Assembly (NCBI GenBank): GCA_024635755.1
Contig: JAGXIF010000018.1
Span: forward strand, 1-49,617
DNA length: 49,617 bases
Origin: Halothiobacillus sp.
GTDB taxonomy: Bacteria; Pseudomonadota; Gammaproteobacteria; Halothiobacillales; Halothiobacillaceae
Direction of reading: 5' to 3'
A program made the translations under genes and the position numbers. Positions within the stretch are counted from its first letter, which is position 1. The number at the start of each line of letters is the position of its first letter. Below the pieces are notes generated by a model. The model was not told where the DNA came from. It did not search any database and worked only from the letters and a program-made list of their open reading frames with translations. Of this stretch, positions 12,728 to 44,058 are shown one piece after another.

Positions 12728-14331
12728 CGGCCCACCTGATTTCCCTGCTAGTGCTGCTGCCAATCGCCCTGGCGGCGATTCTGACCATGACCGGCCAGCG
12801 CGCCCCGACCCTGTCACGCAGGCTGAGCCTGGGCGGGGCGGCCGTGCTGCTGTTGGTCAGTGTCGGCCTGCTGCTGGGTGGGCACGGCGACACCCCTCGG
12901 GTGATCGAGCTGGGCAGCTGGGCCGCGCCGTTCGGCATCGTGTGGGTGTTTGATCGGCTCTCCGGCCTGATGGTGGTACTGACCTCGATCGTCGCCCTGC
13001 TCTCGCTGATCTATGCCATCCGTCGGGACGAGGATTCGGCTGGCCCGCACTTCCATGCCCTGTTCCAGGCGCAGCTGTTCGGTCTCAACGGCGCGTTTCT
13101 CACCGGGGATTTGTTCAACCTGTTCGTGTTCTTCGAGGTCCTGCTACTGGCCTCCTACGGCCTGCTGCTGCACGGCAACGGCCGCAAGCGCACCCGGGCG
13201 GGTTTCCATTACGTGGTGGTCAACCTGATCGGCTCGACGCTGTTCCTGTTCGCCGTCGGGGCGCTCTACGGCACCGTCGGCAGCCTCAACCTGGCCGACA
13301 TCACGCTCAAGCTCCCCGAGGTGGCCCCGGATGCCGTGCCGATCGTCACCACGGCGATCTTCCTGCTGTTCACGGTGTTTTTGATCAAGGGCGCGGCCTT
13401 CCCGCTGTACCTGTGGCTGCCAGGGGCGTATGGCTACGCCTCGATCCCGGTCGCCGCCCTGTTCGCCATCATGACCAAGGTGGGGTTGTACTCGGTGCTG
13501 CGGGTCGACTCGGTGATGCTCTCGGGCAACACCATCGGCGGCCTGGTCGACACCACGGCCCTGATCGCCCCCTGGCTGCTGTGGCTGGGGCTGATCACCC
13601 TGTTGCTGGCCGCGCTGGGCGTGGTCGCCGCGCGTTTCCTGCGCCGCCAGGTGGCCTACCTGATCATCGCCTCGGTGGGCACCATCCTGATCGCGCTGGG
13701 CCTGGTCACCGGGCCGGAGCGCGAGATGGCGATCAGCGGCGCTTTGTTCTACTGGATCCACACCACGGTGCTCAGCGCCGGGTTCTTTCTGCTTGCCGGT
13801 CTGATGATGCGTCATCGACCGCAGGCCGGTGACGAGATCGAGGCGGCGCCCCCCATGCCGCACGCCATCCTGGTGGGTTCGCTGTTCTTTGCCTACGCGA
13901 TTGCCATGGCGGGCCTACCACCGCTGACCGGCTTCTTCGGCAAGGTGATCATCCTCTCCGCCGCCCTGGATCACCCGCTGCTGGCCCCCATCTTCGCGGT
14001 GGTTCTGGTCAGTGGCCTGATCATGGTGATCGCCCTGGCACGTGCGGGCAGCCGGCTGTTCTACCAGTCGCTGGCCACGCCGGGGCACCCCGCCGACCGG
14101 GCGGCGGATGCCAAGGGCCCCATGCCGGGCCTAGCGATGGCGACGTTGCCGCTGGGTCTGGCTGCCCTGATGGTGGTGGGCGCCCAGCCGCTAAGCAGCT
14201 GGCTCGATCAAACGGCCGGGCAGATTGCCCAGCCCGCGGGCTATCTCGACGCGGTGATGCCCCACGGCGTGCTGCAACCGGAAACCGCCCCGGGCAAGTT
14301 CGGCCAGGACGTGGACGGAGGACACCACTAG
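12724..14331 (+). CDS. mrpD: Mrp antiporter subunit D (NuoM/NuoN-like)
   Basis: Second large proton-channel-like subunit of the Mrp complex. It has 535 residues and about 14 membrane helices. The conserved Glu-bearing segment FNLFVFFEVLLLASYGLLL near residue 130 and the Lys-bearing segment FLIKGAAFPLYLWLPGAYG near residue 220 match the MnhD/NuoM pattern, as does AGLPPLTGFFGKVII near residue 400. The start overlaps mrpC by four bases; mrpE begins immediately after its TAG. Confidence 0.96.
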   Translation: MTAHLISLLVLLPIALAAILTMTGQRAPTLSRRLSLGGAAVLLLVSVGLLLGGHGDTPRVIELGSWAAPFGIVWVFDRLSGLMVVLTSIVALLSLIYAIRRDEDSAGPHFHALFQAQLFGLNGAFLTGDLFNLFVFFEVLLLASYGLLLHGNGRKRTRAGFHYVVVNLIGSTLFLFAVGALYGTVGSLNLADITLKLPEVAPDAVPIVTTAIFLLFTVFLIKGAAFPLYLWLPGAYGYASIPVAALFAIMTKVGLYSVLRVDSVMLSGNTIGGLVDTTALIAPWLLWLGLITLLLAALGVVAARFLRRQVAYLIIASVGTILIALGLVTGPEREMAISGALFYWIHTTVLSAGFFLLAGLMMRHRPQAGDEIEAAPPMPHAILVGSLFFAYAIAMAGLPPLTGFFGKVIILSAALDHPLLAPIFAVVLVSGLIMVIALARAGSRLFYQSLATPGHPADRAADAKGPMPGLAMATLPLGLAALMVVGAQPLSSWLDQTAGQIAQPAGYLDAVMPHGVLQPETAPGKFGQDVDGGHH

Positions 14332-31520: not shown

Positions 31521-33301
31521 ATGACACAAGCGGACCGGGACACGCCGGTAGTGAAGATCGGCGACGAGGCGGACATCAACCAGGCACTGCACCTGGCGCG
31601 CAACGTCCGAATCGAGCGCCTCGGCGAAGTCCTGGTCCGTCAGGGCGTCCTCACACGCGAGGCGCTCGAGCAGGCACTGGAGGCGCTCAAGCACCTTCCC
31701 GCCACGCACCTGGGCGACTTGCTGGTCGAGCAAAAGATCATCTCGCCGGAGCAGCTCGAGGAGGCTCTGTGCGCACAGCTGGGCATCCCGCGCATCAACC
31801 TCGGCGCCTTCACCCCGCCGCCCGACGTCGCCGCCCTGATCCCCTACCAGATGGCCCTGCGGCTGAACGTCCTGCCGCTGGCGCGCCGCAACTCGGTGCT
31901 GGTAGTCGCCTGTGCGAAACCCACCGACCAGGAACTCCTGTCCATCCTGCGCTTCTACTCCGGGCTGGGCATCGAACCGGTCCTCGCCGCCCGTCAGCAG
32001 ATCACCACTGCAATCAACCGCGCCTACCAGGTGGAATCCGGCGGCGAAGACACCGAAGGCTACCTGCGGCCTGAAGCCCCCCCCCCAGGAACCAGGAACA
32101 GGGAATCGAAAACAAGGCCAGCAGCCCGCCGGTGGTCAAGATGGTCAACACCCTCCTGATGCAGGCGATCAGCCGGGGGGCGTCCGACATCCACTTCCTG
32201 CCGCGCCGCGGCAATGTGCTGGTGCGCTTTCGCCTCAACGGGGCGCTGAAGAGCATCCGCTCATTCGACAAGGCCCAGCTGGCCGCGGTCGTCGCGCGAA
32301 TCAAGATACTCGGCCGCATGAACATCGCCGAGCATCGCCTGCCGCAGGATGGCCATGCCCGCGTGCACATGGGCAAGCAGGAGGTGGACCTGCGCATCTC
32401 CGTGATGCCGGCCGTCAACGGCGAGAGCGTAGTCATCCGCATCCTGAACAAGAACATGGGTCTGAAGCCACTCGAGGCGCTCGGCTTCTCCAAGGGCGAC
32501 GAGCGGGTCATCCGCAACCTGATCGCCCGCGCCCAGGGCATGATCCTGGTCACCGGCCCGACCGGTTCGGGCAAGACGACCACGCTCTACTCGCTGCTGC
32601 AGGAAGTGAGGGCCGCCGACCCGCACATCATCACGGTCGAGGACCCGGTCGAGTACGACATGGACGGCATCGACCAGATCCAGGTGCATAGCGGCATCGG
32701 CTATACCTTCGGCCGGGCGCTGCGCAACATCCTGCGCCACGACCCCGACGTGATCATGATCGGTGAGATGCGGGACCTGGAGACCTCCGAGAGCGGTGTC
32801 AAGGCCGCACTCACTGGTCACCTAGTGTTCTCCACCCTGCACACAAACGACGCCGCCAGCGCGGTGACCCGCCTGGTCGACATGGGCGTGGCGCCCTACT
32901 TGGTCAGTTCGACGGTCATGGGCGTGCTCGCCCAGCGACTGGTGCGCATCCTCTGCTCGCATTGCAAGGAGAAGCACCAGCCTGCCCCACTGGTGCGCGA
33001 GATCATGGGCGTCGACAAGGACGCCACCTTCTGGCATTCAAAAGGCTGCGACCAATGCGACCAGACCGGCTACGTCGGCCGAACCATGGCCTACGAGCTG
33101 ATCGCGGTCGACCGTGACATGGCCAACCACATCGCCCGCGGCATCACCACCGAGGAACTGCGCCAGCTTGCCGTCGACAAGGGCATGCGCACCCTGACCA
33201 GTCACGCCCTCGAGATGGCGCAGGCGGGCATCACCTCGCTGGAGGAGGCCTATCGTGTCCGTCTCGAGGATCTCGGCGACCTGGAACACGAGGAGCGCTA
33301 A
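31521..33301 (+). pseudogene. GspE/PilB-type secretion ATPase with MshEN-like N-domain, frameshifted at a C10 tract
   Basis: Assembly ATPase of type II secretion/type IV pilus systems, about 593 residues if the frames are joined. Frame 1 (31521-32159) holds two RLGxxLVxxG-like motifs (RLGEVLVRQGVLTREAL and HLGDLLVEQKIISPEQL), the MshEN fold that binds c-di-GMP in MshE. Frame 2 resumes at the C10 run 32077-32086 (NQEQGIENKASSPPVVKMVN) and carries GASDIHFLP, Walker A GPTGSGKTTT near 32560, DPVEY, HDPDVIMIGEMRD (Walker B), STLHTNDA and the four zinc-binding cysteines. One extra C, two fewer, or a -1 slip restores the protein. It could be a pseudogene, a phase-variable gene or a recoded one. No other pilus genes are adjacent. 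Confidence 0.85.
32077..32086 (+). repeat. Homopolymer of ten C at the frame break of the secretion ATPase
   Basis: Ten consecutive C lie exactly where the ATPase reading frame shifts by -1. Long homopolymers are hot spots for slipped-strand mutation, for polymerase or ribosome slippage, and for sequencing error. The location in the linker between the MshEN-like domain and the ATPase core means either frame keeps at least one whole domain. Confidence 0.9.
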
Positions 33302-41501: not shown

Positions 41502-44058
41502 TTATCGTAGGAAGGTGGCGGCGAAGTCGGCGGCGGGCAGTGGTCGGCCGAAATAGAACCCCTGGAGCGTGTCAGCCTTCATCTCGCGCAGCAATTGGGC
41601 CTGTTGCGCGGTTTCCACCCCTTCGGCGACCACCCCGAGGCGCAAGCTGTGGGCCATGGCGATGGTGGCCGAGACGATCGAGCGCGCGTCTTCACTCTCC
41701 AGTATTTCGGCGGTGAAGCTGCGATCGATCTTGAGGCAGTCGAGCGGGATGCGCCTGAGATAGGCCAGCGAGGAATAGCCCGTGCCGAAATCGTCGATGG
41801 AAAAGCGCACCCCCTGGTCACGCAGCCGTTCCATTGCCGCCACATGCACGTCGAAATCCGTCATCAGCGCGGTTTCGGTGATCTCCAGCCCCAGCGCCTC
41901 GCCCGAGATGCCGGCCACCCGCGCGCTTTCCATCAGGCGTTCGGCCAGGGTGGGATCGCCGAACTGTCGCGTGGAAAGATTGATCGACAACTTGATCTTC
42001 CCACCCCATTCGGCCGCCTGCTCGACCACCTGCGCGATGATCAGTTCGCCAAGGGGCAGGATCAGGCCGGTCTCCTCGGCGAGCGGAATGAACTCGTCCG
42101 GCGGCATCCGTCCCCACTCGGGATGCTCCCAGCGCAACAGGGCCTCGGCCCCCACCAACGCGCTGGCCTCGGCATCCACCAGGGGCTGGTAGTGCATGCA
42201 GAACTGCTGCTGCTCGATCGCCGTGCGCAACCCGGTTTCCAAGTCCAGGCGACGCTGCGCCGCCCGGTTCATGGCGGGGGTGAACAGGCTGTAGGTATTG
42301 CGCCCCCGCTGCTTGGCACGGTACATGGCGATATCGGCATGCTTGACCAACTGCTCCTCGTCCACGCCGTCCTCCGGGTAGAAGGCGATGCCGATGCTGC
42401 AACCGATCACCAGCTCACGCCCCTGCAGAAAGACCGGTTGACCCAGGCTGTCGATCACGCGCTGGGCGACATCCGCCACCGGCTCAAAGTCCTCCACGTC
42501 GGGCAGCAGTACCAGGAACTCATCCCCGCCGGTCCGTGCCACCGAGTCGTCTTCGCGCAGGCAGGCCTTGAGCTTGCCGGCCACCGCCTCGAGCAACTGG
42601 TCGCCCACCGCATGGCCCAGCGTGTCGTTGATGGTCTTGAAGTGATCCAGATCGACGAACATTACGGCAAGCCTGCCCCGGCCCCGATGGGCATGCGCCA
42701 CCGCCATCGACAGGCGATCGTAGAACAGGCGTCGGTTGGGCAGGCCGGTCAGCGGGTCGTAGTAGGCGAGGTGGCGGATCTGGCGTTCGTTTTCCTTGAG
42801 TTCGGAAATGTCGGAGAACAGCGCCGCGTAGTGACTGATTTCGCCGTTTTCATCGGTGATTGCCGTGATGGTGAGCAGTTCGGGGTAGATCTCACCGTTC
42901 TTGCGCCGGTTCCAGATCTCGCCCCGCCATTGCCCATGGCGCGACAACGTCGACCACATTCGATCGTAGAAGGCCTGGTCGTGACGACCCGATTGCAGCA
43001 CGGAAGGCGATTGGCCGATCACCTCGTCGGGGCTGTAGCCGGTCAGTTCCGTGAAGGCCGGGTTGACCCGCATGATCCACCCCGAGGCATCGGTGACCAT
43101 GATCCCCTCGAGCGAGGTCTGGATCACCTTCTCGGCCAGTTGCAGATTGCGCTGCGAGGATGCCAGGGCGCTGTCGCGCGCTTCGAGCGCCGAGCGCAGC
43201 TCGTCGACATAGGCCAGCTCGATGCCCGAGAGCAGGTCGGCAAAACTCACCAGCCCCTCGACCTCGCCATCGCGTTCCACGCCGATATGGCGCACGCCCC
43301 GATCGTTCATCATGTTGCGTACGTGATAGAGGCTGGCATCCGACGGGGCCGTATAGAGGGCACGGGTGCAGACCCGGCCGACGGCCGTGTCATCCGCCCG
43401 GCATGCGATCAGGCCGATCAGGTCGCGCTCGGTCAGGATGCCGCTGCCCCCGTCGTCCAGCGCGATCAGCGCCGCGTCCGCGCGCGCCTCGCGCATGCGA
43501 TGGCAGACGACGTCGGCAACGCCAACCAGAAGCCGCGTCCGCGCGCGCCTCGCGCATGCGCGTCGCCACCCGGCTGAGCGGCTCGGACTCGTCGGCCCGC
43601 ACGTTGTCGTGCCCCACCAGAGTGCCCACCGTCCGAAAGTGCAGGTAGTGCTCGATCCCTTGGTTCAGCACCACGTCGGTCAGCGAGATGATGCCCAGCG
43701 CCGCCTCGTTTAGCGGGTCGGTCACCAGCAGATGACGAATGTGCTGATCACGGAATCGATGCGCCGCATCGGTGAGATGGGCATCCGCGACAATGCGCTG
43801 CACGGGCGAACTCATCACCTCGGCAACGGGCCGGTCGTGAATGCCCGGCGAGCCCAGATCGATCCCCAAGGCATCATGTTCGGTCCAGATACCCACCGGG
43901 CAGCCGTCGTCGGTGACCACGATGGAGCTCACCGCGGCATCCCGCATGCGCTCGGCCACCTCGTGCAACGGTGTGTGCGGCGCGCAGGTGAGCGCGCCCC
44001 GTCCCGGCGGGATGATCTCGGCGATGCAGGGGTCGAAGTGCAGCTTGCTGGCGTTCAC
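41502..44058 (-). pseudogene. CBS-PAS-GGDEF-EAL c-di-GMP signalling protein, interrupted by a 61-bp insertion
   Basis: Ancestral product about 831 residues: four CBS-like repeats (FDPCIAEIIPPG, SPGIHDRPVAEVMSSP, LSRVATRMREARADAALI...GILTERDLIG, then GVRHIGV), a PAS domain (EGIMVTDASGWIMRVNPAFTELTGYSP), a GGDEF domain with intact I-site REDD and GGDEFLVLL, and an EAL domain with AEALLRWEHP, DDFGTGYSS and VAEGVETAQQ. The frame breaks in CBS repeat 3. A 29-bp coding segment is present twice (43471-43499, 43532-43560) around 32 bp; removing 61 bp rejoins RMREARADAALIALDDG exactly. An ATG at 43496 could still give a PAS-GGDEF-EAL fragment, but it lacks an SD. Start GTG 44058 has GAGGA; ATG 44139 with AAGGGG is an alternative. 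Confidence 0.9.
43471..43560. repeat. 29-bp direct repeat flanking a 32-bp unique segment inside the GGDEF-EAL gene
   Basis: 43471-43499 and 43532-43560 are identical over 29 bases; the next bases on both sides differ, so the repeat is exactly 29. The intervening 43500-43531 is 32 bases and is not part of the host gene's coding sequence. Period 61, which shifts the frame. The repeat contains a GCGCG-CGCCT-CGCGC dyad. This is insertion of new DNA plus duplication of the target, not simple tandem duplication, because the 32 bases occur only once. The geometry equals a type I-E CRISPR repeat-spacer-repeat, but it lies in coding sequence with only two copies. Confidence 0.95.

Follow-up and report, generated by a model that had tools for sequence, protein, structure and literature searches.

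The stretch of DNA analysed here, below called the window, is 49,617 nucleotides long and corresponds to contig C30; the draft genome to which it belongs comprises 2,226,020 bases in 51 contigs and is estimated to be 87.86% complete. A gene encoding a protein with CBS, PAS, GGDEF, and EAL domains is found on its minus strand, and this gene is split in two where a short target sequence is present twice, with single-copy DNA between the copies. The features of the locus are:

41502-43496, minus strand: downstream half of the gene, a CBS-PAS-GGDEF-EAL ORF of 664 amino acids, assigned from the ORF and its Pfam domains; the first ATG lies inside copy 1
43390-44058, minus strand: upstream half of the gene, containing CBS domains and frame-shifted at the insert, assigned from the ORF and Pfam CBS; the start was placed by eye
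43471-43499, no strand: copy 1 of the 29-bp duplicated target, an exact match to 43532-43560; single copy in the relatives G008, G003, and G005
43500-43531, no strand: insert of 32 bp (33 bp if read as 28+33); source not found in the sets searched
43532-43560, no strand: copy 2 of the 29-bp duplicated target, identical to copy 1; single copy in the relatives
43551-43562, no strand: perfect palindrome of 12 bp that belonged to the ancestral site and extends across the right-hand end of the duplication

Comparison of the sequences confirmed that, as the initial annotation had claimed, identical copies of 29 bases flank 32 single-copy bases. The identity stops at exactly 29 bases, the left flanks being C versus A and the right flanks A versus C. 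The period of the lesion is 61 bp, which can be read either as 28+33 or as 29+32. The insert is present a single time in the window and, with up to three mismatches allowed, a single time in the assembly. Reading on the minus strand from about 44058, the CBS ORF enters copy 2 and the insert, and the frame is lost. The 61-bp insertion thus shifts the frame, and the CBS-PAS-GGDEF-EAL gene becomes two ORFs. It had been suggested that a c-di-GMP enzyme was knocked out by this event. The gene is indeed split, but the catalytic PAS-GGDEF-EAL part is still one open frame with an ATG within copy 1, and a knockout goes beyond what the sequence shows.

A 971-base query gave matches in eight of 40 genomes, own included. 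Three of these, G008, G003, and G005, belong to the same genus and match on both sides, and these were the members of the genus that were aligned across the site. All three carry a single copy without the insert and have a reading frame that is open through the site, and in G003 and G005 the whole gene is found in one frame. It follows that 61 bp were inserted and that the target was duplicated. The single-copy ancestor, which had originally been deduced from the reading frame, is hence backed by homologues as well, and the proposed insertion with target duplication agrees with the empty single copy at the aligned site in these relatives. In the window, copy 1 and copy 2 have one and the same sequence, which differs from that of all three relatives; this fits an event in this lineage that is probably recent. 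The sister gene of G008 (L014:762-2666) displays an independent single-base frameshift of its own near the EAL motif, which points either to a dispensable gene or to errors in both drafts.

Other genes in the window may be split as well. A first list of candidates had nine entries, including ones near 2628 and 27350; the position of another, near 827, is apparently upstream of where its gene is likely to start. At 2613-2641 a 7-bp unit is repeated in tandem about four times, and G008 is 14 bases shorter here. A gene for a PilB/MshE-type ATPase (31521-33301) is found as two ORFs, encoding first MshEN and then the T2SSE ATPase, and is broken at a run of ten Cs (32077-32086); in G008 and G003 it forms a single ORF. 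The split could reflect phase variation, real decay, or an error in the sequence. MshEN domains bind c-di-GMP, and two genes tied to c-di-GMP are thus broken in one window.

An assembly or library artefact, in which a chimeric read or a mixture of strains was written into a contig of the 51-contig draft, is an unlikely origin of the 61-bp lesion. The estimated completeness of 87.86% speaks for such an error, as does the presence of another split gene, the one at the C run, in the same window. However, the 90-bp structure should fit within one ordinary read, a graph error would not arise unless genuine reads connected the 32 bp, at each end, with the target, and the insert is without an exact or near-exact match in the sets searched. 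The lesion is probably a real insertion of a rare kind.

Its rarity was assessed by scanning 751,436 bases of the own genome, 34% of the assembly in 41 stretches that include the window, for exact direct-repeat pairs of at least 18 bp whose copies leave a gap of 5 bp or more and have a distance of no more than 200 bp. Only one other pair was found, with 21-bp copies 27 bp apart, and the lesion is therefore beyond what is expected by chance. When approximate pairs (24 of 28) at distances of 50-72 were included, three were recovered, at 51, 61 (the lesion), and 72. No second 61-bp lesion was present in the scanned third of the genome.

The same criteria were applied to 800,000 bases of the family, in 40 stretches of G003, G006, G008, G009, G013, and G015. 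Paired tRNA-Glu genes were found in three stretches, and there was one hexamer repeat. One G013 stretch contained array-like 37-base repeats as well as a 19-base pair, while two G015 stretches contained clusters of longer repeats, some with gaps of 61-71 bases. With the G015 clusters left out, no second isolated duplication with single-copy filler of similar size was seen in the family scan. The G015 clusters, on C1 (L134:13740-16137 and L135:15455-15807), are composed of longer direct repeats with spacings of about 91-185 bases. The 37-bp direct repeats of G013 (C1, L129:3099-3483 and 13819-13978) have a spacing of 70-71 bp and opposite orientations; they share their stretch with a Cas1 match and are probably arrays of another CRISPR type.

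The source of the insert was searched for in several ways. With up to three mismatches, the whole insert found only itself, both in a set of 40 genomes and in one of 369 that contain the own genome, and the 18-base halves, with at most one mismatch, found only themselves in the 11 genomes of the genus. The exact 32-mer was absent from viral contigs and genome contigs, and three exact 22-mers, the last of which includes one base of copy 2, were absent from the viral contigs. The plus-strand frame of the insert opens with an ATG and resembles the start of a gene, and codon-degenerate patterns were therefore scanned as well. They gave no match in viral contigs and genome contigs, and in 27 genomes of the order they found, with at most one mismatch, only the copy in the window. 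The collections searched may omit records of the own genome or of very near ones. The best phage match of the insert had an E-value of 0.3 (among the best 20 of 50 records) and the best plasmid match one of 0.06 (among the best 20 of 116 records), both of chance quality. At least six plasmid records span 80% or more of the insert with 83-89% identity, but with E-values of 3-9 these are also of chance quality. A 90-bp query against phages and a 52-bp query against plasmids gave no place with 80% coverage. The comparison with phages, plasmids, and the own genome proposed in the initial annotation thus returned the copy in the window and partial matches that are no better than chance.

The longest word in common with the 751 kb of the own genome was 14 bases when the flanks were included and 12 bases for the insert alone. 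The right junction is spanned by a 14-nt word that is also present in G000 (L114); this is no evidence for a source, since words of at least 14 turn up with 148 of 500 shuffled queries. Nor does the insert correspond to a G003 spacer, the best ungapped overlap with 33 such spacers being 16 bases, which is not meaningful. It had been pointed out that a native or template source elsewhere would speak against spacer integration; none was found in the assembly, at up to three mismatches, or in the genomes of the genus. These searches argue against a template from the same genome, though part of this genome is unassembled. Most spacers are without a known source, and an absent source therefore neither supports nor refutes that the insert is a spacer.

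A duplication around unique DNA might also arise without any CRISPR system. Break repair or template switching during replication might have captured 32 nt of filler and re-synthesised 29 nt, the CRISPR-like size then being coincidental, and this is a possible but quite uncertain origin. The site is GC-rich, and a break or a stalled fork might be promoted there by the 12-bp palindrome that covers the right end of the duplication. Copy 2 with its right flank folds slightly better than shuffled sequences (z -1.69; equalled or surpassed by 11 of 200 shuffles). However, the stretch of copy 1 (z 0.54) and the whole stretch of 110 bases (z -0.57) fold no better than shuffles, and the comparison with shuffles gave no convincing hairpin at the lesion. 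Neither the assembly nor the genomes of the genus yielded a template for the insert or for its halves, which further speaks against repair or template switching, and no other such lesion was met with in 751 kb of the own genome. Ku-type end joining is not indicated either, as Ku was found in none of the 27 family genomes, own included. Finally, repair would have to produce the exact 28/29+32/33 size by coincidence.

This size was the starting point for the claim that the lesion has the geometry of a type I-E CRISPR unit, and the period does equal that of I-E arrays, including those found in the family. Arrays with a period of 61 are present in G003, which is of the same genus, and in G013 and G016, while no array was seen in the stretch read of G011, which has Cse1. 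In G003 (C1, L078:6098-15573) the genes cas3, cse1, cse2, cas6e, cas7e, and cas5e form an effector operon, beyond which lies an array made up of 34 variable repeats. The array starts about 160 bases beyond cas5e, which leaves no room for cas1-cas2 in their usual place, and Cas1 was not found elsewhere in this genome. The array also contains a repeated block of several units. The presence of operon and array in G003 shows that a type I-E system has entered the genus.

A type I-E cas operon with an array in the own genome had been proposed as a check of the CRISPR origin. The own assembly, estimated to be 88% complete, yielded no Cas1, Cas2e, or Cse1, and no repeat within three mismatches of the G003 repeat. 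Using the model PF01867, Cas1 was found in ten of 27 genomes of the family and in none of the 11 of the genus, and this distribution, together with the missing machinery in the own assembly, favours repair or template switching. The sensitivity is limited: PF01867 gives the Cas1 near Cse1 in G013 only 33.9 bits and could therefore overlook a Cas1e that has diverged, and of 14 controls the models for Cas2e and Cse1 matched 2. Such an oversight is nevertheless made less likely by these two models.

Within 60 bases of the site, the best match to the IHF consensus has four mismatches on the left and three on the right. Since 1,446 of 2,000 random 60-mers from the window reach three mismatches or fewer, no IHF site stands out. 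No leader-like DNA was seen beside the lesion. The target is identical to four I-E repeats at 12-14 of 29 positions, which is equalled by 5-16% of GC-matched 29-mers. Among all 29-mers of the window, 1.8% reach 14/29 with the G003 repeat and 3.6% reach 13/29 with the E. coli repeat, but this mild excess vanishes against GC-matched 29-mers, and the idea that the target resembles I-E repeats was dropped.

A G at the start of the insert had been taken as a sign of a type I-E spacer. The first spacer base is G in all 23 repeats counted in G013 and in 51 of 52 in G016, while it is C or T in all 32 counted of the 34 repeats in G003. The three aligned relatives also have a G at position 29 of the site, so that a 28-bp duplication with a 33-mer starting with G is possible. 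The 29-base identity reads as G-starting on one strand and as C-starting on the other, however, and is thus not discriminating. Given this and the spacers of G003, the G start must be considered a weak sign.

If the lesion was made by off-target integration, about 32-33 bp of non-native DNA would have been joined into the GGDEF-EAL gene across a staggered cut of about 28-29 bp, and repair of the gap would then have duplicated the target. The duplication is observed, while the staggered joining is deduced from it. The agent would be a type I-E adaptation complex acting off target, which may have been transient, may since have been lost, or may be encoded in the unassembled part of the genome. 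The outcome would be the frameshift that splits the gene in two. Judged by size alone, such a complex would seem to be the most economical agent. A Cas1-Cas2 integrase works in this way, and the lesion resembles an integrase product, but its fit to a CRISPR event is post hoc, because the lesion was picked for its geometry.

That off-target type I-E integration produced the lesion is accordingly put forward as a plausible but quite uncertain explanation. Equal caution applies to the fuller account, in which the lesion might be the scar left by a lost or passing I-E Cas1-Cas2 that split a c-di-GMP gene in a genome where cas1 is now not found. The orphan spacer event named as the cause in the initial annotation did not gain support, as neither Cas1, Cas2e, Cse1, nor a G003-like repeat was found in the assembly, the site showed neither an IHF-like motif nor repeat likeness beyond GC-matched chance, and the searches gave no protospacer. 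The event is not filed as CRISPR because the machinery and site features that were tested for were not found. The degrees of confidence expressed for the various origins are judgements and not computed values, and the remainder is assigned to other causes.

One further origin is highly improbable, namely that the lesion is the remnant of a larger element that was flanked by 29-bp att-like cores and later deleted down to 32 bp. Direct repeats of 29 bp would also have a plausible size for a recombinase core. However, two events would be required, the target is an ordinary protein-coding stretch, and 32 bp is too short for recognisable element sequence, none of which was recognised.

If off-target integration by a CRISPR system did occur, the lesion would be a fossil that makes adaptation activity readable in genomes without cas1. 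It would also mean that immune integrases mutate their own host in the wild and that their footprints outlast them. Otherwise the lesion merely adds to the duplication-with-filler mutations and warns that chance can produce CRISPR geometry.

Off-target, or non-canonical, spacer integration by the type I-E Cas1-Cas2 of E. coli was reportedly described by Nivala et al. in 2018, who are said to have found a CRISPR-sized duplication of the target and also to have included a small number of putative natural cases from other species. Cas1-Cas2 was overexpressed in E. coli when such integration took place (PMC11788318), and integration was favoured near IHF-like motifs (PMC9456107). The lesion in the window shares with these events the insertion of short DNA outside an array, but differs in that neither machinery nor an IHF-like site was found. 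The E. coli I-E repeat is 29 bp and the spacers 32 bp, the last repeat base originating from an incoming spacer of 33 bp (PMC10011333). The lesion has the same 61-bp period, and by the older convention the same 29+32 division, as such a repeat-spacer unit. It is, however, a single unit inside a coding gene where no leader-like DNA was seen, and its target is no more similar to the four I-E repeats than GC-matched chance. Compared with tandem duplications that contain filler DNA from break repair or template switching, it differs in that a template was not found in the assembly, while it shares with them both the duplication around unique DNA and the palindromic, GC-rich site.
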